A stretch of DNA of 32,453 bases from assembly GCF_001561995.1 (NCBI RefSeq), contig NZ_LLWC01000014.1, positions 1 to 32,453 on the forward strand, read 5' to 3'. Within the stretch, counting starts at the first letter, position 1. Every line of letters begins with the position of its first letter. The DNA comes from Polycladidibacter hongkongensis. Its GTDB lineage: Bacteria > Pseudomonadota > Alphaproteobacteria > Rhizobiales > Stappiaceae. A program made the translations under genes and the position numbers. Below the pieces are notes generated by a model, which searched no databases, was not told where the DNA came from, and saw nothing but the letters and a program-made list of their open reading frames with translations. Positions 13,100 to 29,673 of this stretch are shown here, piece by piece.

Positions 13100-14812
13100 C
13101 TAAATCGGCGGGTCAACATGTACCACCTCATCTGGTAAGTTAATGCGAACATTGATGTATTTGCGAATACGCCCGTTGATTTTCTCAATGCCTTTCTTGG
13201 GCAATTCGCGGCCAAACAGGGTGTTGGTAAACACTTTGACAGCGCTCACCTCGCACCAGCGCTTATAGGCGTTGTACATGGTCTGCGCGGTTACCTCGGC
13301 CACCGGCTGGCCCGCATCGTCGGGCGGCACGGCGATGAGACACTGATCGACAAATTGCTGGATCGGGTCCATCTCCGATCGGTAGCTATCCGTCATGCCC
13401 GCAACCGCCTCCGGCACCTGCAATCCCCCCTCCACATAGGCCGCCAGCCCCTCGATCATCCAGTTGAGAATACCGGCCCGCTCTGCGGCAAACTCCGCCA
13501 GCACCTGTTCCAGCGGTCGTCGTTCTGCCTCCGGTATTTTGACAGACCACGGCACAATCAGCAGCCGCCGCCAGATGCCGTGATCCGTGCCGGTAATGTA
13601 GGGTTTGTCATTCCCGCTCATCACCGCCTTGAAAATGGGCGTCATATCGAAAAAACCCTGATGCAACCGGCGCACCTGCATGGGCTCGCCGCCGGTCAGC
13701 GCCTTAATCAGTTCCTCTTTTACCGGCTCGCCGCGCGGCAATTCGGAAACCCGCACCAAGCGTTTGCCCACCAATGTGGCCAGATCCGGTGTGGCCTGGT
13801 CGCCGCGCCGCTGGCCGGATCCGGTGACACTCTCGGGGTTCAGCTGCCCGGCATAGCCGCCAAGCAAGGCGCAGATCGCCTCGATAAATGTGGATTTGCC
13901 ATTGGCCCCGTCGCCATAGAAAAACAGCAGCTTTTGCTCGGCGGTGGAGCCGGTCAGGCAATAGCCCATAAAGCGCTGCAAAAAACCCTGTATCTCTTCA
14001 TCTGGCTGAAAATAGTCTAAAAACGCCTGCCAGCGCGGGCAGGCAGCGCCCTTGTCATAGGCCACCTGCGCACACTTGGAAATGAGATCCGCCCGCGCAT
14101 GGTCCTTGGCATTGACGTTGACAACCTGCCCGCCCTCGCCATCGCCCTCAGGGTGCAGATGCAGCGTGGCGCTTTGCGTGTTTAGCACAAAGTCATCCGC
14201 ATCCATGTCATCAGGCCCATGGGTTTTGTGGGGCAGCGCCATCAGCAACATGGATTTGACCCGCGCCGCATTGCCGCTGGAGACAGAGAACGCCCGCTGC
14301 CGCGCCCGCCGCTTGTTCAGCGCCTCTCGCGCCGCCTCTGCGGCCTCCAGTATCTGCCGCTGCGCAGGAGTTGGCTTGCCATCACTCACCACCAGCGCCT
14401 CCCCTGCCTCGATCGCCCGCTGCTCATGCGGCGAATACTCTAAAAACGGGGCCTCCAGCCGGATGCGCTCGGCGGTTTCCTGCGCCAGCCGGGTCACCAC
14501 CTCCTCCCCGCCGGTCAGGTCCCAGTGGCTGCCGCACCAGCTGTAAAACCCGTGCTCGCGAATATGCAGGAATTCATCGCCAAAATGGGCGATCAGCCGC
14601 TGGCCGTTGCCGGTGTCGTTGTGGTCCAGCGCGCTGCAGGCCCGCAGCACCTGCTGGTCGAGCACATTGTCACCCTGTGCCCCGCCAGCTGCCCCGCCTG
14701 CTGCCTCATGCGGACCGCCGCGCCGGGCACCGCGCGCAGGGCCTGCCCCTGCCTGTGCTGCATTTGCCTCACGCGCGGCGGCCGCCAACGCTTTTTTGAC
14801 AGCTGCGCTCAT
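13100..14812 (-). CDS. SF3 helicase / D5-type primase C-terminal protein (P4 family)
   Basis: The 570-residue protein is a phage/plasmid P4-family primase-helicase. After a low-complexity Ala/Gly start (to about residue 48) comes a D5-N domain (GFYSWCGSHWDLT near 88-100), a Walker A GDGANGKST at 300-308, then SELPRGEPVKEELIKALTGG and KAVMSGNDKP, typical of superfamily 3. The end is a winged-helix part (MYNAYKRWCE). It unwinds phage DNA for replication. Its start overlaps the stop of the primase gene (ATGA at 14809-14812), so the two are coupled. Confidence 0.9.
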   Translation of the reverse strand: MSAAVKKALAAAAREANAAQAGAGPARGARRGGPHEAAGGAAGGAQGDNVLDQQVLRACSALDHNDTGNGQRLIAHFGDEFLHIREHGFYSWCGSHWDLTGGEEVVTRLAQETAERIRLEAPFLEYSPHEQRAIEAGEALVVSDGKPTPAQRQILEAAEAAREALNKRRARQRAFSVSSGNAARVKSMLLMALPHKTHGPDDMDADDFVLNTQSATLHLHPEGDGEGGQVVNVNAKDHARADLISKCAQVAYDKGAACPRWQAFLDYFQPDEEIQGFLQRFMGYCLTGSTAEQKLLFFYGDGANGKSTFIEAICALLGGYAGQLNPESVTGSGQRRGDQATPDLATLVGKRLVRVSELPRGEPVKEELIKALTGGEPMQVRRLHQGFFDMTPIFKAVMSGNDKPYITGTDHGIWRRLLIVPWSVKIPEAERRPLEQVLAEFAAERAGILNWMIEGLAAYVEGGLQVPEAVAGMTDSYRSEMDPIQQFVDQCLIAVPPDDAGQPVAEVTAQTMYNAYKRWCEVSAVKVFTNTLFGRELPKKGIEKINGRIRKYINVRINLPDEVVHVDPPI

Positions 14813-15981
14813 GCGGCTCTCCCTGTTTTTTCTTTAATAAACCAGTCCGCCAAATCCATGCCTGCTGGCGGCCACACGCTGCTGGCGGCAATGCCCGCTC
14901 TTGCTGCCCGCGCCTGCACCATGGCCAGCAGCGCCCGCAGCACATGCAGATCAGCTGTGTCGCTGTCGGCTAAATAAATCAATGTCTTGCAGCCCTTGGC
15001 CGGAGCCGCACAGGCCGAGGTATAATCGGGCACGCGCGCGGGTAGCAGCTTGCCGGGGCGGGCCGGATGGGGTTCGCGGGGCGCGGTGGCATCCGCCCTG
15101 CCGGTGAGATTGCCAAGCGTGCCTGCCACCCATGCAGGACACCCAGAGGCAATCGCCGCGCCGCAGGTCTCGATCCCCTCTCCCAGCGACATGGTGAGCG
15201 CAGGGGGCGACAGCCGGATGGCGCTGCCCATAAACGGCCCGCGGATCTTCTTGGCAGGCAACACGCTGCCATCCTGCGCCACAATCCGCGCCTTGCCTTT
15301 TTGCTGCGCAGGCCCTGTCAAATCCAGCCATGTCATATGCAGCGCGGCAAACCGGCCATCGCGCCGCTGAAACGCCGCCAACATGGCAGGGCCTTGATGG
15401 ATAATGCGCAGGGTGCCATCCGCGCCCGCATGCCAGAACGGCAACGCGGGGTGATAGCGCAGCACCTGTGTTTGCAGCGCGGCCCCGCCAAGCGCCCGCA
15501 CTTCGCGCAAATAGGTTTCCGCTGGCGAGCCGGTAAACGCCGCGCCCTGCTGCCAGATCGCTTGGGCCCGCGCCCGTTCCTTAGCCGCATCTCGTGCCGC
15601 TTGTTCGTCCTGCGCTTGCCTTTTTTGCCGCCAGCGTTCCTGCCGCGCCTGCTTTCTCTGCGCCTGTGCTGCCTTGTCCGCAGCGCTGCGCGGGGCTGCC
15701 GCCGCCTCGCCGCCCAGTGCCTCCACCGCTTGGGAGAAAGAAAGCCCATCGCGCAACATCACATAGTCAATGGCGCTGCCCGCCGCCCCGCAGGCGGTGG
15801 AGTGGCAGCGAAAGGTGTTCTTTACGGGGTCCACCTGCAACGAGGGGTTTTTATCGCCATGCAGCGGGCAACAGCCGGAATAAAGCCGCCCGGCACGGCG
15901 CAAACGGGTGTCCGCGCCAATCAGCGCCACCAGATCCGCCTCCCGCTTCACCCGTTCAATCTCAAAGGGCTCAAAGCGCAT
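14809..15981 (-). CDS. CHC2/Toprim DNA primase
   Basis: The 390-residue protein starts after a GGGAGGG site. The N-terminus holds a CHC2 zinc finger (C38-P-L-H41, C59, C64; the second pair is spaced CxxxxC, wider than usual). A charged Arg/Lys/Ala helical linker follows at about 85-140. The Toprim domain contains LGEGIE (catalytic Glu) and LADSD (metal-binding Asp pair). It makes RNA primers for phage replication with the neighbouring helicase. Cytoplasmic, no membrane segment. Confidence 0.88.
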   Translation of the reverse strand: MRFEPFEIERVKREADLVALIGADTRLRRAGRLYSGCCPLHGDKNPSLQVDPVKNTFRCHSTACGAAGSAIDYVMLRDGLSFSQAVEALGGEAAAAPRSAADKAAQAQRKQARQERWRQKRQAQDEQAARDAAKERARAQAIWQQGAAFTGSPAETYLREVRALGGAALQTQVLRYHPALPFWHAGADGTLRIIHQGPAMLAAFQRRDGRFAALHMTWLDLTGPAQQKGKARIVAQDGSVLPAKKIRGPFMGSAIRLSPPALTMSLGEGIETCGAAIASGCPAWVAGTLGNLTGRADATAPREPHPARPGKLLPARVPDYTSACAAPAKGCKTLIYLADSDTADLHVLRALLAMVQARAARAGIAASSVWPPAGMDLADWFIKEKTGRAA

Positions 15982-16818: not shown

Positions 16819-17601
16819 TCACCGCCCCTCCTGACCCTGTTTCAAGGTGAGGCCGCGATAGGTGATCAGGCGGCGTTTGAGCTTCACAAAGCCCATTTTC
16901 ATCGCCAACACCCCGCAAATCAGCCCGAACGCTGTCTGGCTGGCCGCTTCTTCGCCGCGTCCGGCGCTATACCGGCAATAGGCCTCGAACAACACTTGCG
17001 CCCGCACCTCGTCGCGCCCGATCTCGCAGGCCTCTTCGATAAATGCCTGTACGTGCGGCATAAGTTGCTCAACCACCCCGCCCGCAGGCCCTTCATCGTA
17101 AAAGCCGTTTGCTACGGGCAAGCCCAGATCCCGCCACAACCCGCGCGCCGATTGCCGTCCGGAAAGCTTCAGGGTTAACTCCACCAACCGCGCTTTGGTG
17201 GCAATGTCTTGCAGGTGATTCAGCTCCGGCCCGCTTGTGGCAAAACTGCTTGCCTGTTCCGCTTGCGGCGCGTCGCTGGCGGTGTAGCTGCCGGTTTTGC
17301 GGATGCTCGGCAACACCTCATGCGCCAGCCAGCGTTTGAACCGCTCTGCCGCTGGCTTGCGCGATTGGAAGATCAACCGATAAAGACCGAACTCATTTAT
17401 GATAACCATTTCTTGCTTGGCCGAGGGGGTGTCCACAGTATGGACCCCCCTCTCGTCTTCACCCAGCAGAGCAAGTGAAGATCGGGGATTGCCGAGCTCC
17501 AAACAGCGGCAGACATCCTTGCCGACAAACCAAGGTTCGCCGTCCAACTCAATCACCCGCACCAGATGATCCTCAAAGCCGAAATTCGTCAGGGCGTTCA
17601 T
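16819..17601 (-). CDS. Bro-N domain antirepressor
   Basis: The ATG at 17601, with GGAGG 7 nt upstream, overlaps the upstream gene by ATGA. The 260-residue product has a Bro-N domain at residues 1-105 (GEPWFVGKDVCRCLELGNPR, INEFGLYRLIFQSRKP, KRWLAHEVLPSIRKTG). A C-terminal domain with EAYCRYSAGRG resembles the helical end of D5-type proteins. Bro-N proteins of phages bind DNA and act as antirepressors. It is the second gene of an operon preceded by a C4-type RNA, the same order as c4-icd-ant of phage P1. Confidence 0.85.
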   Translation of the reverse strand: MNALTNFGFEDHLVRVIELDGEPWFVGKDVCRCLELGNPRSSLALLGEDERGVHTVDTPSAKQEMVIINEFGLYRLIFQSRKPAAERFKRWLAHEVLPSIRKTGSYTASDAPQAEQASSFATSGPELNHLQDIATKARLVELTLKLSGRQSARGLWRDLGLPVANGFYDEGPAGGVVEQLMPHVQAFIEEACEIGRDEVRAQVLFEAYCRYSAGRGEEAASQTAFGLICGVLAMKMGFVKLKRRLITYRGLTLKQGQEGR

Positions 17602-17876
17602 GCCATGCCCTCCGCAGTTGCGCTGCAAGCAGATAGGCCAAGGCGGGCAGCAGCGTCTTGCGCCCGTCCGCTCTCGTCATCCAGCAGCTGTAACAGGGTA
17701 AAAATGCAGGCCAGCCGCTCATCGCCGCCAGCCAATATCTCGTCGGCCAATGTGCGCATGGCAAACAGCAGCGCGCCGCTGGCCGCCTGTGCGCTGTACA
17801 ATTGATTTAGATTTTTCTGGAATGTATCGAGGTGGTTTTTTGCATGCACGCACCCGTTATCTGCCCGCTCACACAT
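17598..17876 (-). CDS. small protein in icd position, upstream of antirepressor
   Basis: The 92-residue product starts at ATG 17876 with an ideal AAGGAGA site 6 nt upstream and ends in an ATGA overlap with the antirepressor. It is helical: NHLDTFQKNLNQLYSAQAASGALLFAMRTLADEI. I do not recognise a close family; in P1 and relatives the gene at this place is icd, a cell-division inhibitor translated in coupling with ant. Its ribosome site lies inside a segment that can pair with the upstream C4-type RNA, so translation is probably RNA-controlled. Confidence 0.8.
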   Translation of the reverse strand: MCERADNGCVHAKNHLDTFQKNLNQLYSAQAASGALLFAMRTLADEILAGGDERLACIFTLLQLLDDESGRAQDAAARLGLSACSATAEGMA

Positions 17877-17885
17877 GGCAAATCT

Positions 17886-17925
17886 CCTTGAGTTGAATTG
17901 TATCCAACCACCGGAGGTTCCAATC
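17886..17925 (-). promoter_or_regulatory. seqC: target of the C4-type RNA overlapping a ribosome binding site
   Basis: GATTGGAAC (17925-17917) and CTCAAGG (17892-17886) repeat the seqA blocks and complement seqB. CTCAAGG runs into AAGGAGA, the ribosome site of the 92-aa gene, so pairing with seqB would hide it. Confidence 0.75.
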
Positions 17926-18001
17926 TCGGGCGGCCGGACGAACAGGATTGGAACTACCGCCCTCAAGGAAACGGCGCGCAAAAGCGCTCCTGCCCGCCCG
18001 A
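17926..18001 (-). ncRNA. c4: C4/CI-type antisense RNA (phage immunity RNA)
   Basis: On the minus strand a 76-nt segment is closed by an 8-bp stem, TCGGGCGG (18001-17994) with CCGCCCGA (17933-17926). Inside are a GCGC-TTTT-GCGC hairpin and two single-stranded blocks, CCTTGAG (17968-17962) and GTTCCAATC (17954-17946). Both blocks (seqB) are complementary to seqA at 18078-18052 and to seqC at 17925-17886. C4 of P1/P7 and CI RNA of P4 have this size and this A-B-C logic. The surrounding text (translated as WFFVMVGRAG) is the usual spurious peptide of such loci. Confidence 0.85.
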
Positions 18002-18008
18002 CCATAAC

Positions 18009-18038
18009 AAAAAACCACGCAACCAGAGGTATGCGTGG
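18009..18038 (-). terminator. terminator hairpin in the C4 leader
   Basis: On the minus strand CCACGCA (18038-18032), a 10-nt loop and TGCGTGG (18021-18015) are followed by six T residues. It lies between seqA and the 76-nt RNA, so it could end a short leader transcript carrying only seqA, or form part of the C4 processing context. Confidence 0.65.
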
Positions 18039-18051
18039 CGCAATGCGAGCG

Positions 18052-18099
18052 CCTTGAGAACAGAAAGGGGTTCCAATCCCCGCACGGCTTTTTTTGCCG
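18052..18099 (-). promoter_or_regulatory. seqA leader region with two hairpins
   Basis: A CGGC-A7-GCCG hairpin (18099-18085) is followed by GGGG-ATTGGAA-CCCC (18081-18067), which displays the GATTGGAAC block in its loop. CTCAAGG follows at 18058-18052. These are the upstream copies complementary to seqB of the C4-type RNA. Confidence 0.7.
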
Positions 18100-18129
18100 C
18101 ACTTGCCGGAAATCTCCCGACTGCCCCTA

Positions 18130-18158
18130 AGACTCTCGCAGGCGCGCGAAATTGTCAA
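18130..18158 (-). promoter_or_regulatory. promoter of the C4-antirepressor transcript
   Basis: A perfect minus-strand TTGACA at 18158-18153 is followed, after 17 nt, by a weak -10 (GAGTCT, about 18135-18130). It sits about 50 nt upstream of seqA, a good distance for the leader start. The -10 is poor, so strength is uncertain. Confidence 0.5.
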
Positions 18159-18261
18159 GCATGAAAACCTTTCACCACCACCCCAAGAAAAACCGGATAC
18201 CCTTACGGTATTATCCAGCGCGATTGACTCGCATTTTTCATGTATTGATGAGGCAAAGTCC

Positions 18262-18885
18262 ATGCACACCAAAGTGTTGAACCAGTTTAACCGCGCCCGG
18301 ATCGACCAAAGGCAAGTGGCTGAGTTGATCGGCATTGCCCGCGGTGTTATCGCAGATGGCACACTCAACGATTTGGAAATCGAGTTCTTGTATAAATGGC
18401 TCATCGCCAATGCGGATGCTGCGCAAAACCCGCTTGTCAACGCGCTGATCGCCCGCATTAAAGATGCGTTGGCAGATGGCGTGATTGACGATGAAGAGCG
18501 GCAGGACTTGCTCTCGACCCTGCATGAACTCACCGGTGCCGATTTTGAAACAGGCGAGGCATTGAAGGCCGCAACTTTACCGCTGGATGACCCGATGCCG
18601 GCAATCGTATTCCCGCACCGCAATTTCACCTTTACCGGCACGTTCACCTTTGGCAAGCGCAAGGATGTCGAGGCCGTAACGAAACAGTTGGGCGGCAACA
18701 TTACACCGCTGAATATGAAAACCCATTTTCTGGTTATAGGTGAATACGCCACCGACAGCTGGCTGCAATCCTCGTTTGGCACAAAGATTGTTAAAGCCGT
18801 CGAGATGCGCGAGAAGCGTCGCCCGATTGCCCTCGTCAGCGAAGCCCACTGGTATGAAGCGGCAGGCAGGCTCATCGACGCATAA
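18262..18885 (+). CDS. TerB-like / BRCT domain protein
   Basis: The start at 18262 (MHTKVLNQF) has a GAGG site at 8 nt; the frame continues upstream to 18094 but that part is C4 leader read backwards. Residues about 17-95 have a TerB-like acidic pattern with ADGTLNDLEIEFL and ADGVIDDEERQDLL. Residues 117-207 are a BRCT domain (FTFTGTF, KQLGGNI, FLVIG, final W197). BRCT domains bind phosphorylated proteins or DNA ends, as in NAD-dependent DNA ligase, but no ligase domain is present. It is encoded opposite to the lytic transcript and ends 7 bp from the MT-A70 gene. Function unknown. Confidence 0.82.
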   Translation: MHTKVLNQFNRARIDQRQVAELIGIARGVIADGTLNDLEIEFLYKWLIANADAAQNPLVNALIARIKDALADGVIDDEERQDLLSTLHELTGADFETGEALKAATLPLDDPMPAIVFPHRNFTFTGTFTFGKRKDVEAVTKQLGGNITPLNMKTHFLVIGEYATDSWLQSSFGTKIVKAVEMREKRRPIALVSEAHWYEAAGRLIDA

Positions 18886-18892
18886 GCTACCA

Positions 18893-19483
18893 TCATGCCA
18901 CCTCATCGAATTTGCCAGTTTCATCTCCAAAACAGTCCCAGCCAACGCGCTGCTCACGGGAAAACAAATCAAGGCGCCTATGAGCTGCCGGGAACAGTTT
19001 CTCTGCGGCCGCATACGCTTCATCTGGCTTGCGAGAATGCTCACGGCGCAGCCCCTCAATCACCGATCTGACATTTGAGCCAAACTTTGGTGCACCGACC
19101 TTACCAATTAAAAAAGGCTCCCCTGCACAGCGCAGGGCATACCCTGTGCCGAACGCCAACCTACGTTTTTTCGTGCGTTGACTTTGCGTGTATTTAACCC
19201 AATGGCCAGCCGTTACAAAGCTAAAGCCCCAAGCGTCGAGAACTTCAAATGCCTCGCGCAACAAGGGATTGGTCGCCCATAGCCATAGAACGCAATCGCC
19301 TGCGGCCAGATGAGAGACATTCATGTCTTTAATCTGATCTAGCGCCATACAATCGTATTTGGCGCTAGCATTTTTATGTTCTCCCTTTTTTGACCAATTG
19401 GCATAAGACCAAGGCGGGTCGGCCATGATTAAATCATAGGACAAGGGGGGGATTTGGCTAAGTTGATTGAATACTGCCCTCAT
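18893..19483 (-). CDS. MT-A70 family N6-adenine DNA methyltransferase
   Basis: The 196-residue protein has the catalytic DPPW at residues 22-25 and the family's LWLWATNPLLREAFEVLDAWGF segment. It ends with PDEAYAAAEKLFPAAHRRLDLFSRE, the SAM-related C-terminal motif. It transfers a methyl group from S-adenosylmethionine to adenine in DNA, probably shielding phage DNA from host restriction. It overlaps the C5 methyltransferase stop by ATGA, so the two are coupled. No restriction enzyme gene is adjacent. Confidence 0.88.
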   Translation of the reverse strand: MRAVFNQLSQIPPLSYDLIMADPPWSYANWSKKGEHKNASAKYDCMALDQIKDMNVSHLAAGDCVLWLWATNPLLREAFEVLDAWGFSFVTAGHWVKYTQSQRTKKRRLAFGTGYALRCAGEPFLIGKVGAPKFGSNVRSVIEGLRREHSRKPDEAYAAAEKLFPAAHRRLDLFSREQRVGWDCFGDETGKFDEVA

Positions 19484-21021
19484 GCCGCCCGCCTTTCTGC
19501 AGCATCAACACGCAGCTCTGGCAGGTTTGCAGCAACCAGCGCCTGCGCCCATGGCGGGCAGACCGAGTTGCCACATTTTGCCGTTTGCTCGGTTTTTGGG
19601 AATGGCTTGCCGTTGTAATCAAACTCGATCCGGTAGTCCTCCGGAAAGCCCTGCGCACGGTAGAGTTCAGCAGCGCTCAGCATCCGCATGCCAATATCGC
19701 TGATCACATAGGGCTCGCCGCCGATATTGACAGTCACAAGGCCAAAGCGGTCCTTGGTTGTCACTGTCCCCATTGGCTCATCCACGGGCTGACCAAGACT
19801 GGTGCCGTAATACGCAGTCAGAAATGCGCGCACCTCGCCCACATGGCTGCTCCCTGCGCTGACTGACGGCATGGGTGCATCGACTTTCTGGCCATGCTTG
19901 CAAGTGCCCCACAGCTTAACCAGATGGCTGGTAACAATGTTCTGCTGGGTGGCGCGGCTGGTGATAGTCGAAAGCGGTGCATCAGCAGCCCGCCCCGACA
20001 CATTAAAATTGTGCTGGGCTAGAAACACCGCCACCAGTGCCGAATTACCAATACCCTTGGTGGTAACCGTGCCAAGCGGCGCGGCGATATCTGCGCCCCT
20101 TGAGTTACCGAAGGTCCGATCGATGCACGGCATCACCAAAGCACGGCAGCCCCCCTTTTCGGTTTTAATGGTCGAAAACGGCTTGTTGAGCGGTTTCAAC
20201 CGCCCGCCATGGCTCATGTTCAAAATAAATGGCGCAGAATTATCAATAACGAATTTTTGAATGCCCGCTGCAATGCGCTTTAGTGTGTTTTCTGCCAGTG
20301 GTCTCTTGCGCTCAAAAATTGAAGGGCACGGAATGGACCAGTCAATGCATTCGGCTTCGGTTCGCCATGGTTTAAGCGCCCCCGTGCGTACTGCCTCGCT
20401 TTGAGGGTCGCCGTGGGTCGGCGCTGGCCAGATAATCGCCTTGCGATCGCGCCTGGCAATCACAAACAAGCGCCTGCGGATGGTCGGCGCGCCATAATCG
20501 CACGCCCGCAAAATGCGATGCTCCACCCGGTAGCCGAGCTGGCGCAGCGCCCCCTGCCAGGCTTCAAAATCCTCCCAGCCCTTAAACTCAGGCACGTTTT
20601 CCAGCATGATCACCCGCGGGCGCTTGCTCCCCAACTTTTGACAGAAATGCACCACGGACCACGCCAACATGCGCACGCTTTTTGAAACAGGCGCTGCCCC
20701 GCGCGCATTAGAGAAATGGCGACAATCAGGCGAGGCCCACAGCAGGCCCACAGGCCGCCCGTTTGTGTAGCTTTGCAAATGCACATCCCAAACGCTCTCG
20801 CAAAGATGCAAGGTTTGCGGGTGGTTCTGCGCGTGCATCGCCAGCGCTTTATCACAGTGGTTGATGGCGATATCCGGAGACCGGCCAAGCGCCAGTTCAA
20901 TGCCGGTCGAGGCCCCGCCGCCACCGGCAAAAGCATCAATAATCAGCTCATGCTCTGAATTGACCATTTGCGGCGGCACAGAGCCTGCTATGTGAGAATT
21001 TGAGAACAGATCCATGCTCAT
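19480..21021 (-). CDS. C5 cytosine DNA methyltransferase
   Basis: I use the ATG at 21021 (MSMDLF), with GAGG 8 nt upstream, rather than GTG at 21030. The 513-residue protein has motif I DAFAGGGGASTG near residue 30, motif IV as PDCRHFS (PDC instead of the usual PPC), motif VI LENV, motif VIII RRRLFVIARR and motif X GNSV. The central target-recognition part has several LSTITSR/MGTVTTKDR repeats common in phage enzymes. It methylates cytosine in a specific site, likely for anti-restriction. Confidence 0.9.
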   Translation of the reverse strand: MSMDLFSNSHIAGSVPPQMVNSEHELIIDAFAGGGGASTGIELALGRSPDIAINHCDKALAMHAQNHPQTLHLCESVWDVHLQSYTNGRPVGLLWASPDCRHFSNARGAAPVSKSVRMLAWSVVHFCQKLGSKRPRVIMLENVPEFKGWEDFEAWQGALRQLGYRVEHRILRACDYGAPTIRRRLFVIARRDRKAIIWPAPTHGDPQSEAVRTGALKPWRTEAECIDWSIPCPSIFERKRPLAENTLKRIAAGIQKFVIDNSAPFILNMSHGGRLKPLNKPFSTIKTEKGGCRALVMPCIDRTFGNSRGADIAAPLGTVTTKGIGNSALVAVFLAQHNFNVSGRAADAPLSTITSRATQQNIVTSHLVKLWGTCKHGQKVDAPMPSVSAGSSHVGEVRAFLTAYYGTSLGQPVDEPMGTVTTKDRFGLVTVNIGGEPYVISDIGMRMLSAAELYRAQGFPEDYRIEFDYNGKPFPKTEQTAKCGNSVCPPWAQALVAANLPELRVDAAERRAA

Positions 21022-21125
21022 GCGGCGCACCTCATGGCTGCGCTGACACTGGCCGCGCTTGCGCTAGCGTGCAGCTCTCGGCTAATGTGGTTGCGGTTGA
21101 TTAATCGATTTGGATTGTTTGTTTG

Positions 21126-22452: not shown

Positions 22453-22989
22453 CTAGCGGTTAGCCGTGGTTGTGAACGATCCATTCTCGCGGCGCAGATC
22501 GCCAGTCGCGCCCGCTCCCGCCTCCAGCACCGCGGCCAGTGCCGTTTGCATCACCACCGCCGCGCGGATTAATTCGTCGCATTCGCGCAGCAGCCGCGTC
22601 TGGCGGATTTCATCACGGCTAATACAGCCATCATCGGCAAGACATTCGCTTACCTTACCAACCACGTCCGACAATTCTTTGGAGAGGCTGGCCACATGGC
22701 GCAGCCAGTCGCGGTGGCTGTCCACCTGCGGCAGTTTATAAAGCGCATGGCCGGTAATCCCGGCGAGCACCGCTGTCACCACCGCCTCGCCGATCTCCGC
22801 CTCCAGATCGGCCACCACGTCTATGGGCATGTTGAGATCATCCTGCGGCTGGCCGTAACGGGCGAGCTGAGAGCGCTCCACCCGCGTGCCGAGGCTGGCC
22901 GCCTCTTGGCCGCCATTCAGCTTGATCAGCTCCTTGGCGTAGCGTTTGAGCCGCAAATAGGTTTCGCTGGATAAGGCACGCGCTGGCAT
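22453..22989 (-). CDS. phage regulatory protein, CII-like
   Basis: The 178-residue protein starts at ATG 22989. It has an HTH-like N-terminal half (LNGGQEAASLGTRVERSQL) followed by PQDDLNMPIDVVADLEAEIGE and a helical C-terminus with LLRECDELIRAA. The pattern of an HTH followed by a MPIDVVADLE segment recurs in small regulators of alphaproteobacterial phages and loosely resembles the CP76/CII regulator family. A perfect 9-bp inverted repeat lies 37-58 nt upstream. It follows the Cro-like gene in the immunity region. Confidence 0.6.
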   Translation of the reverse strand: MPARALSSETYLRLKRYAKELIKLNGGQEAASLGTRVERSQLARYGQPQDDLNMPIDVVADLEAEIGEAVVTAVLAGITGHALYKLPQVDSHRDWLRHVASLSKELSDVVGKVSECLADDGCISRDEIRQTRLLRECDELIRAAVVMQTALAAVLEAGAGATGDLRRENGSFTTTANR

Positions 22990-23025
22990 CACACAAAATT
23001 CCCGTTGTTTACCGGTGACAGCATC

Positions 23026-23206: not shown

Positions 23207-23524
23207 TCAGGCAGCTGTTGCCGTATCGTCCGCCAAGGGCAGAACAGCGCCAGATGCGGCGGCAGAGGCCGCCGCGCCCCCGCCGCCGCCTGGCGCCGCC
23301 TCTTGCGCTCTATCCACCCCACCACTCCGTGGCAGCTTCCAACTGAAAAGATGAAGCGGCACCACAACGTTTTGCGCCGCTCCAAGATCCCTCAGGGCGA
23401 GATACCAAGCAGCTGGAAAACGATTGGAGTGCTTTGCAGCAAACAACGCGCCCGCTTTCACGCCAAGCACCGCCATCACCTGCTGCTCACCAAGCTGATG
23501 CAATATTGTCTTTGCTTCGTTCAT
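23207..23524 (-). CDS. Cro/YdaS-like helix-turn-helix protein
   Basis: The 105-residue product has an N-terminal HTH of the YdaS type: ILHQLGEQQVMAVLGVKAGAL and NRFPAAWYLALRDL (residues 7-47). The C-terminal half is an Ala/Gly-rich low-complexity tail. It points away from the XRE repressor gene across an 86-bp divergent promoter region, the expected place for a Cro-type switch protein. No Shine-Dalgarno is visible before the ATG at 23524, so the mRNA may be nearly leaderless. Confidence 0.7.
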   Translation of the reverse strand: MNEAKTILHQLGEQQVMAVLGVKAGALFAAKHSNRFPAAWYLALRDLGAAQNVVVPLHLFSWKLPRSGGVDRAQEAAPGGGGGAAASAAASGAVLPLADDTATAA

Positions 23525-23536
23525 ATCGGCATGCTG

Positions 23537-23590
23537 TCAAATATTTTGAGTTACCGCAACCCAAAAAATCACTTCTATCAATTTTTTTGA
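23537..23590. promoter_or_regulatory. operator sites between cro-like and repressor genes
   Basis: TCAAA-TAT-TTTGA at 23537-23549 is a perfect 13-bp palindrome; TCAAT-TTT-TTTGA at 23578-23590 is a near copy. A second, overlapping palindrome TTTTGAGTT-N5-AACCCAAAA covers 23544-23566 (8 of 9 arm positions). These are the likely binding sites of the repressor and Cro-like protein. Confidence 0.6.
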
Positions 23591-23610
23591 GTCTGAGCGA
23601 TGGTAACCCC

Positions 23611-23907
23611 ATGAAACAACCAGCAGAATCAGAAAGCGCACAGGTCAGCGCTCGCCTTGCTTGGCTGCGCAGCCACTACAGCCTAGAGATCAAGGATATG
23701 GCAGCTGACATTGATGCCAGCTACACCCAGATGATCAACTGGCTCACCGGCACACAGCGCCTCTCGCTCAAAGGCGCACTGGCTATCAGTACGACCTACG
23801 GCATATCTCTGGATTTTCTATTTCTTGGACGCGTGGAGAGCCTCCCCCCCGAGCTCGCACGATCGTGGATGGCATTTTCCCGCGCAAAAGATGCGGCGCA
23901 GCAATAG
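23611..23907 (+). CDS. XRE-family phage repressor
   Basis: The start is MKQPAESES at 23611; the longer frame to 23434 crosses the divergent region. The 98-residue product is nearly all one HTH domain: LAWLRSHYSLEIKDMAADIDASYTQMINWLTG and LSLKGALAISTTYGISLDFLFLG, the XRE/CI-like layout with a short C-terminal helix. It lacks a cleavable peptidase domain, so it is not LexA-like. The poor ribosome site recalls leaderless cI transcripts. Confidence 0.78.
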   Translation: MKQPAESESAQVSARLAWLRSHYSLEIKDMAADIDASYTQMINWLTGTQRLSLKGALAISTTYGISLDFLFLGRVESLPPELARSWMAFSRAKDAAQQ

Positions 23908-28687: not shown

Positions 28688-28704
28688 AAGGAGGAGGCGG
28701 CGTG

Positions 28705-29673
28705 ATGGCGGAAAACTCAAAAATTGAATGGTGCGACCACACATTCAACCCGTGGATCGGCTGCTCCAAGGTTAGCCCAGCCTGCGATAATTGCTACGCC
28801 GAGGCCTATGACAAGCGCTTTGGTGGGGAGCGCTGGGGTGTACATGCCCCTCGCAGGCTCACCAGCGATGTAAACTGGGAAAGGCCACTGAGCTGGAACC
28901 GGAAAGCCGCAAAAGAAGGAAAACGATACCGCGTTTTCTGTGCTTCGCTCGCAGATGTATTTGATAATCATTCAAGCATCCAGCCAGAATGGAGAGCGCG
29001 CCTTTGGGAATTGATAGAGAGAACACCCAACCTAGATTGGCTGCTCCTCACAAAACGTCCGCAAAATATCCAAAAGCTGGTTCCATGGGAATGGTTTTTC
29101 CCTATCAACGTCTGGATTGGTACCACCGTTGAGGATCAAAAAACGGCAGACCAGCGGATTAAGCACCTGAGCAAAATCCCGCAGGCGGTTCGCTTTCTCT
29201 CGTGCGAGCCGTTGATAGGCCCTGTCGATCTGACCAATGTTGAATGGTTTGATGGTCTGCGTTTCAATGCCCTAGAGGGCAAGTTGCATGGCGATACCGG
29301 CTACGTTTTTGAGCTTGAGTGGGTCATTGCAGGCGGGGAAAGCGGCGCAAAAGCCCGTCCGTCGCACCCGGACTGGTTCCGATCCCTACGCGACCAATGC
29401 GCATCTTGCCCAACACCGTTTCTGTTTAAGCAGTGGGGCAATTGGGTACCAATGCTTGACCGCGATAAAGATGATCCTGACTGGAGAGGCCCCTACGGCC
29501 GCGCGAATAGCCGACCCAACCAGTATCGTATCATTAATTTAGAGGGCGGCTGCGGGTTTCATGGCGAGCGCGTTCATCTCATGCGCCGCTGTACAAAAAG
29601 GGCCGCCGGTCGCCAGCTTGATGGCGTTGAGCATACAGCCTTTCCAAATCTAGCAAAGGAGGTGGCAGCATGA
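28705..29673 (+). CDS. Gp37/Gp68 family (DUF5131) radical-SAM-like protein
   Basis: The start may be ATG 28705 or GTG 28702, both after GGAGGAGG. The 322-residue product begins SKIEWCDHTFNPWIGC and has C20-x6-C27-x2-C30, a radical-SAM-like cysteine motif (CSKVSPACDNC). Then follow FCASLADVFD, LLLTKRPQNI and EWVIAGGESG, all family hallmarks. The reaction is not established. It ends in an ATGA overlap with DUF3310. It is frequent in early phage operons. Confidence 0.88.
   Translation: MAENSKIEWCDHTFNPWIGCSKVSPACDNCYAEAYDKRFGGERWGVHAPRRLTSDVNWERPLSWNRKAAKEGKRYRVFCASLADVFDNHSSIQPEWRARLWELIERTPNLDWLLLTKRPQNIQKLVPWEWFFPINVWIGTTVEDQKTADQRIKHLSKIPQAVRFLSCEPLIGPVDLTNVEWFDGLRFNALEGKLHGDTGYVFELEWVIAGGESGAKARPSHPDWFRSLRDQCASCPTPFLFKQWGNWVPMLDRDKDDPDWRGPYGRANSRPNQYRIINLEGGCGFHGERVHLMRRCTKRAAGRQLDGVEHTAFPNLAKEVAA

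Follow-up and report, generated by a model that had tools for sequence, protein, structure and literature searches.

We identified a C4-type antisense RNA ahead of an antirepressor operon in an alphaproteobacterial phage, and we consider the locus very probably to be an RNA immunity switch of the C4 type that belongs to a temperate phage. The stretch analysed (the window) is a whole contig of 32,453 bases, and family matches along it include a lambda-type portal, a GpA terminase, a capsid E protein, an S49 peptidase and an integrase. An earlier reading from the letters of the DNA, here called the first-pass annotation, had placed a P1/P4-type C4 locus on the minus strand of this contig; its observation is confirmed and its interpretation supported by the analysis below.

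The window carries a C4 RNA between two sets of complementary blocks

A scan of the whole window against Rfam (cmscan) returned one match at gathering level, the C4 RNA (RF01695) at positions 17926–18009 of the minus strand. The match covers the full model (1–87) with 62.3 bits against a gathering cut-off of 45 (E 5.7e-10 over the whole window), so that the check proposed in the first-pass annotation, the C4 covariance model on the minus strand, was passed. Folding of the 84-nt piece gives -43.8 kcal/mol (z -3.36), and 1 of 200 shuffles folds equally well; for the 271-nt leader as a whole (z -4.19) none of 200 shuffles was as good. By analogy with the annotated ends of P1, the mature RNA is predicted to run from 18003 to 17929; the closed RNA previously drawn at 76 nt is thus present, with a predicted length of 75 nt (77 in P1). 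It carries the two blocks claimed for it, which model alignment and block mapping place in a loop (b', CCTTGAGG, 17968–17961) and in a strand (a', GTTCCAATC, 17954–17946). A weak match to the Atu_C7 sRNA (20.1 bits) lies below its cut-off of 45.

Read along the minus strand from 18158 downwards, the elements follow in the order TTGACA, a1, b1, terminator, C4 (b', then a'), a2, b2 with the Shine-Dalgarno sequence, a 92-aa open reading frame (ORF) and the antirepressor. The candidate promoter (18130–18158) joins a perfect -35 box, TTGACA at 18158–18153, to a weak -10 box, GAGTCT at 18135–18130, over a spacing of 17 bases; the promoter of the first-pass annotation stands for its -35, and its -10 is poor. 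Next comes a1 (GGATTGGAAC, 18070–18079), 10 nt complementary to a' and exposed in the loop of a hairpin, GGGG-ATTGGAA-CCCC, in the minimum-energy fold (18067–18081), followed by b1 (CTCAAGG, 18052–18058), 7 nt complementary to b'. Between this seqA and C4 the fold places an intrinsic terminator (18009–18038), a stem followed by TTTTTT. A generic scanner reported neither promoter nor terminator at the locus; its loop limit is 8, and the terminator loop here is 10. On the other side of C4, the first target part in the operon leader is a2 (GATTGGAAC, 17917–17925), and b2 (CTCAAGGA, 17885–17892) overlaps the Shine-Dalgarno sequence AAGGAG (17889–17884) and ends 8 nt before the ATG of the 92-aa ORF. 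Perfect matches to a' and b' measure 10 nt at a1, 7 at b1, 9 at a2 and 8 at b2. The seqA (a1/b1), terminator hairpin (18038–18009) and seqC (a2/b2) that had been read in line on the minus strand are therefore each located.

The ORF in the position of icd (17598–17876, minus strand) has no family match in profile scans and is weakly similar to the ORF in the same position at another C4 locus, L004 (29% over 73 aa, E 2.7e-4). Its stop overlaps by 4 nt (ATGA, 17598–17601) the start of the antirepressor (16819–17601, minus strand), which matches Bro-N (E 3.3e-24) and phrog_130, anti-repressor Ant (E 1e-50), so that a small gene and a Bro-N antirepressor do follow seqC as described. Further along the same strand lie a zinc-finger DNA primase (14809–15981; Zn_ribbon_DnaG 2.4e-21, phrog_510 9.9e-55) and a D5-type primase/helicase (13100–14812; D5_N 2.4e-15, phrog_1156 5.1e-132). 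In a DNA search, 80 phage records gave matches, and the 20 listed all match solely within the antirepressor gene; the viral contig IMGVR_UViG_2744054961_000001 carries an antirepressor identical to that of the window.

A protein repressor had been proposed to act beside the RNA immunity. What we found is a CII-like protein (22453–22992, family match) and, on the plus strand at 23434–23907, a weak repressor candidate whose match to phrog_2328, 'transcriptional repressor', has an E of 1.2e-5; for this ORF the RstR model scores 18.8 bits (cut-off 80), and Pfam and PDB searches gave no match. Divergent from the operon, a plus-strand gene at 18094–18885, its start codon unsettled, is suggested by GC content by codon position and by weak matches to DNA polymerase III epsilon and LigA models, far below cut-off; its C-terminus is probably BRCT-like. 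The antisense frame of this gene has relatives elsewhere in the same genome (contig C7) and in genome G009. MT-A70 and C5-cytosine methylase genes lie beside the C4 operon (18893–21030, minus strand), and a DUF5131 gene (1.8e-84) is found at 28702–29673 on the plus strand.

Complementary blocks in chance controls

For a search free of any RNA model, the six blocks were sought in order as exact 7-mers with the window read on both strands. One place in the window holds the set, namely the C4 locus. When first-order Markov copies of the window were scanned 400 times, 4 scans also held such a set, so the blocks taken by themselves are not overwhelming evidence; what carries the case is the model match, together with block lengths of 7 to 10, the overlap of b2 with the Shine-Dalgarno sequence and covariation among relatives. 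Upstream of relatives of the window's antirepressor, where 46 of 48 regions were of sufficient length, the full six-block set occurs 7 times against none in 920 mononucleotide shuffles, the seven including the window itself (L192), the Stappia locus twice (L027 and L194), L035 and L203. The last two have all six C4-type blocks and no gathering-level Rfam match, and are possible unlisted relatives of C4.

A shorter a..b pattern matched at five places in the 16 genomes of the genus, three of which are the window locus itself and two of which lie in G007 and G014; the reversed control pattern matched once, in G003. No further exact target with this a..b spacing is thus indicated among the 16 genomes. 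The exact a..b pattern occurs in at least 120 stretches of viral contigs, a count made without control and hence uninformative.

C4 blocks covary across related loci

At E <=0.001, C4 is present in 17 of 101 genomes of relatives, 10 of 16 in the genus, 17 of 87 in the family, 17 of 397 sampled from the order (13 above cut-off) and 5 of 385 from the class, in sets that overlap, that all contain the window's genome and of which the larger were scanned with stricter filters that lose weak matches. We analysed all 48 distinct C4 places listed, including five below cut-off (L053–L057). One of them, L005 (genome G031), is letter-identical within a contig of Stappia albiluteola (NCBI: Stappiaceae, Hyphomicrobiales); G031 and the window's genome are of one family, so that the host probably belongs to Stappiaceae. 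Most relatives of the window's antirepressor, however, lack such an RNA, a point against the reading of the locus as a switch: C4 or the sRNA-Xcc1 RNA described below lies above cut-off beside them at 3 of 16 named loci, and at 5 of 32 relatives in viral contigs, a count that includes the window itself and, again, the Stappia contig.

Across the 48 places, the mean match of a C4 to its own flanks is 8.04 nt at a1, 7.12 at b1, 7.77 at a2 and 7.52 at b2, compared to 5.48, 5.41, 5.37 and 5.52 with shuffled flanks, and at each of the four sites none of 2000 shuffles reached the C4's own mean. The shuffles ignore relatedness between loci; because related loci share blocks, relatedness raises the shuffled means and does not lower them. 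Own matches of at least 7 nt were found at a1 in 44 of 48 places, b1 in 39, a2 in 43 and b2 in 37. Strict tests of position were passed at a1 in 44, b1 in 42, a2 in 39 and b2 in 40 places, and at all four sites in 32 of 48; L013, L021 and L054 fail at both downstream sites, and some failures stem from the rule of taking the longest match, as at L006, whose a2 was lost to a longer chance match elsewhere.

The matched strings vary among loci: 24 distinct strings occur at a2 and 31 occur at b2, and some of these differ merely in length or register. The C4 RNAs of L018 and L019 differ by three bases, all in a', and a1 and a2 are changed to match. Both downstream blocks are recognised by the locus's own C4 in 33 of 48 cases, against 21 of 2222 ordered pairs between different genomes. 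Beyond its own leader, the C4 of the window is predicted to recognise those of L025 and L026; none of the other C4 RNAs among the 48 fits the leader of the window. Among C4 loci residing in the same genome, 0 of 34 ordered pairs cross-recognise, a number without power against the 21 of 2222 between genomes. The first-pass annotation had named loss of complementarity in related phages as an outcome that would count against it; complementarity is retained, and the blocks covary over the 48 places and between L018 and L019.

Other parts of the layout recur in counts made without control. A TTGAC occurs no more than 140 nt upstream of a1 at 45 of 48 places, a stem of at least 4 pairs surrounds a1 at all 44 places with an a1 (lax search), a stem with a T-rich tail comes just before C4 at 45 of 48 (crude rule), and ATGG is found at the 5' end of C4 at 46 of 48. 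A start codon lies 5–9 nt after b2 at 39 of 48 places, a count biased upward in that start codons were chosen near b2.

When the proteins of the next gene were scanned singly at 20 other C4 places, 12 matched anti-repressor or transcriptional regulator families (L005, L006, L007, L011, L018, L022, L047, L048, L049, L050, L060 and L064). The remaining eight comprise a primase at L002, a replication-initiation fragment at L014 and six without a family match in these scans (L043, L059, L051, L053, L055 and L063). At L047–L050, L060 and L064 the regulator gene follows C4 directly and the small ORF is absent; at L002 and L014, C4 and a small ORF are followed by the primase or replication-initiation reading frame in place of an antirepressor. 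The product at L060 (692–1453, minus strand) is an AntA-type antirepressor whose C-terminal part matches the phage repressor families phrog_4 and phrog_6201. Several antirepressor folds (Bro-N, Rha, AntA, KilA-N and ORF6N) stand behind C4 places according to a survey by alignment of 88 hand-picked reading frames, which yields counts and not the matching member.

Comparison with known RNA immunity systems

The C4 RNA of P1 (AF234172) scores 68.8 bits with RF01695, and the annotation of P1 lists a1, b1, C4 (77 nt), a2 and b2, the last two marked as repressing translation of icd and ant. The immI region of P1 shares with the window the same RNA model, the order a1-b1-C4-a2-b2-small ORF-antirepressor at near-equal spacing, the TTAT/GG context at the 5' end of C4, the position of b2 just before the small ORF (10 nt before icd in P1, 8 nt in the window) and the 4-nt ATGA overlap between small ORF and antirepressor (icd-ant1 in P1). 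The two differ in the sequences of the blocks and in the region ahead of C4, where the annotation of P1 gives a C1 operator and two promoters, a layout not that of the window. P1 also matches the c4-a1b1 model (51 bits, Rfam), whereas this model (RF03163) has no match in 17600–18400 of the window even at E up to 1. By BLASTP, the Icd of P1 does not align with the 92-aa protein, and Ant1 shows no similarity to the antirepressor of the window (best E 4.3); both antirepressors match phrog_130, mostly over different parts of the profile. The claim that the locus reproduces c4-icd-ant thus holds for layout and class of function, and fails for homology to Icd and Ant1.

The CI RNA of phage P4 works by transcription termination, and unlike that mode, the position of b2 over the Shine-Dalgarno sequence in the window points to translation. 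P4 nonetheless resembles the window in having a small RNA flanked by two complementary targets, as seqA-CI RNA-seqC is outlined in the available part of PMC4825925. For Gifsy-1, the same part of that source describes short IsrK as activating the translation of orf45-anrP in trans and STnc1160 as thought to be processed out of a read-through transcript, and considers that STnc1160 might cause termination (PMC4825925). As far as it is described there, isrK-STnc1160-orf45-anrP is like the window in its terminated leader RNA, its RNA of ~80 nt from a read-through transcript and its small ORF coupled to the downstream gene, and is unlike the switch proposed here in that short IsrK is an activator. 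In Acinetobacter baumannii, the portion available of PMC5320573 describes Group 1 C4-like sRNAs that adopt the structure of C4 and carry a processing motif of the GG type, in many copies per genome; the window's genome has one C4.

A second RNA family with the same logic

At two of the antirepressor relatives (L037 and L204) the RNA ahead of the gene is sRNA-Xcc1 (RF02221) and not C4. This family was matched in 27 of 397 genomes sampled from the order (16 above cut-off) and 47 of 385 from the class (8 above cut-off), the window's genome being in both counts. In G002, G004, G556 and G751 there are ten or eleven matches per genome, part of them below cut-off, which suggests that the RNA spreads or multiplies in these genomes.

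We applied the block test to 25 sRNA-Xcc1 loci above cut-off, leaving out 15 further copies in G002, G004, G514 and G556. Mean matches to own flanks were 7.68 nt at a1, 6.68 at b1, 6.24 at a2 and 6.68 at b2, compared to 5.72, 5.47, 5.17 and 5.11 after shuffling, and 0 of 2000 shuffles per site reached the own mean. Matches of at least 7 nt were found at a1 in 21 of 25 loci, b1 in 15, a2 in 9 and b2 in 17. L235 gave no convincing targets in this test; L253 is a shorter stretch, and the sRNA-Xcc1 extracted from it resembles the others. At 23 of 25 loci the RNA is followed by a reading frame that has a Shine-Dalgarno-like stretch. One of these RNAs, L225, lies in the window's own genome (G000:C7:35843-35927, plus strand; 71.1 bits) ahead of an antirepressor with Phage_pRha and ANT domains, and its loop blocks match its own flanks, so that this genome has a further switch built on the C4 logic with another RNA family.

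Like C4, then, sRNA-Xcc1 presents loops whose blocks have matches both upstream and close to a downstream ribosome site; it differs in its second hairpin and forms a separate Rfam family without a clan, and the RNA of the window matches C4. The small ORF after sRNA-Xcc1 at L231 and L234 is 66–78% identical to that after C4 at L055 and L056, two C4 matches just under cut-off, and the DNA of L231 and L234 is like that of L055 within the gene and unlike it in the RNA part. The sequences look as if one RNA cassette had been exchanged for another before the same small gene. We therefore regard C4 and sRNA-Xcc1 as probably two interchangeable RNA classes for the same antirepressor-guarding switch.

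The literature on sRNA-Xcc1, in the parts available, treats it as an integron-borne, virulence-linked sRNA and states no link to C4. According to those parts, it lies upstream of symE in integron cassettes of Xanthomonas (PMC12444791); in a table of another paper, a Xylella genome has matches to sRNA-Xcc1, isrK and C4 that are no more than ~400 bases apart (PMC12189769).

Proposed mechanism and alternatives

The sequences themselves show the anatomy of the locus, a complementarity that covaries and the family of the antirepressor; from the analogy with P1 we infer promoter activity, C4 processing, a translational block, coupling and immunity. Transcripts from the TTGACA promoter would begin with the leader containing a1 and b1; many would stop at the terminator, and those reading through would contain C4. 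Host RNase P would cut the read-through RNA at TTAT/GG to give a C4 of ~75 nt, whose a' strand and b' loop would pair with a2 and b2 on the same or another transcript. Pairing at b2 would cover the Shine-Dalgarno sequence and leave the 92-aa ORF untranslated, and through translational coupling, given the 4-nt overlap, the antirepressor would not be made. A lysogen would in this way silence its own antirepressor and that of any incoming phage that shares its blocks.

C4 may instead act mainly on transcription, as in P4, with pairing to seqA or seqC stopping the polymerase in the leader and shutting the whole operon beyond the antirepressor, down to the primases (15981–13100). The terminator directly between seqA and C4, the primase genes on the same strand, the small ORFs followed directly by a primase or replication-initiation frame at L002 and L014, and the STnc1160 termination raised for Gifsy-1 in the available part of PMC4825925 all fit such an action, which is compatible with a translational switch. 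Termination alone, however, has no need of a b2 that ends 8 nt ahead of the window's ATG and 5–9 nt ahead of a start codon at 39 of 48 places (the upward-biased count), and we hold it unlikely, though not negligibly so, that transcription is the main target. It is distinctly doubtful that the short terminated a1/b1 RNA turns the operon on in the manner of IsrK, by sponging C4 or refolding the leader: the Gifsy-1 precedent of activation in trans (as given in the accessible part of PMC4825925) is joined here by an isrK match (RF01394) over the a1/b1 and terminator stretch, but this match stays far under the cut-off (22.1 bits against 50, E 0.019), and the stability of a short RNA at this locus is hypothetical.

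That the locus is a decayed remnant, kept in sequence and unexpressed, would agree with the weak -10 box and with a prophage that may be incomplete on the window, the window being a whole contig; we think it very improbable against blocks that match perfectly, two ORFs that are both open, and structural and integrase frames with family matches that are long and open as well. The stretch could also be read as protein-coding, since a 432-aa minus-strand ORF (17598–18896) is open across it, with a first ATG overlapping the end of the MT-A70 reading frame, and the frame is open through C4 in many other places too. Yet the part of this ORF upstream of 18094 is antisense to the plus-strand gene at 18094–18885, with its coding-like GC content by codon position and weak BRCT-type matches, and that gene explains this part of the spurious ORF; the C4 model fits the middle of the ORF, and the frame is interrupted ahead of the C4 start at 16 of the 45 places where a small ORF is present. 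Having no family match and an upstream part antisense to another gene, the 432-aa ORF was rejected as a gene, and we give this coding reading almost no credence.

Significance of a probable C4 switch in Alphaproteobacteria

The available part of Weinberg 2010 (PMC2864571) lists C4 under 'Proteobacteria, phages' and c4-a1b1 under gamma-Proteobacteria and phages. We found no published account of C4 RNA in Alphaproteobacteria or Stappia in a literature search that most subscription journals lay outside. The host group had been called one in which such loci are little described, which agrees with the literature searched; the loci themselves are not rare, being present in 10 of 16 genomes of the genus. 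In logic the locus is an ordinary C4 switch, in a host group for which this search gave no account of one; earlier alphaproteobacterial members in Rfam are possible.

A switch worked out in coliphages is hereby extended to Alphaproteobacteria, with natural covariation over 48 places. L018 and L019 offer ready-made specificity variants that bear on how few bases decide phage RNA immunity. If C4 and sRNA-Xcc1 are indeed interchangeable, the sRNA-Xcc1 standing before symE in integron cassettes would act in cis to keep symE switched off, which would give sRNA-Xcc1 a testable role.
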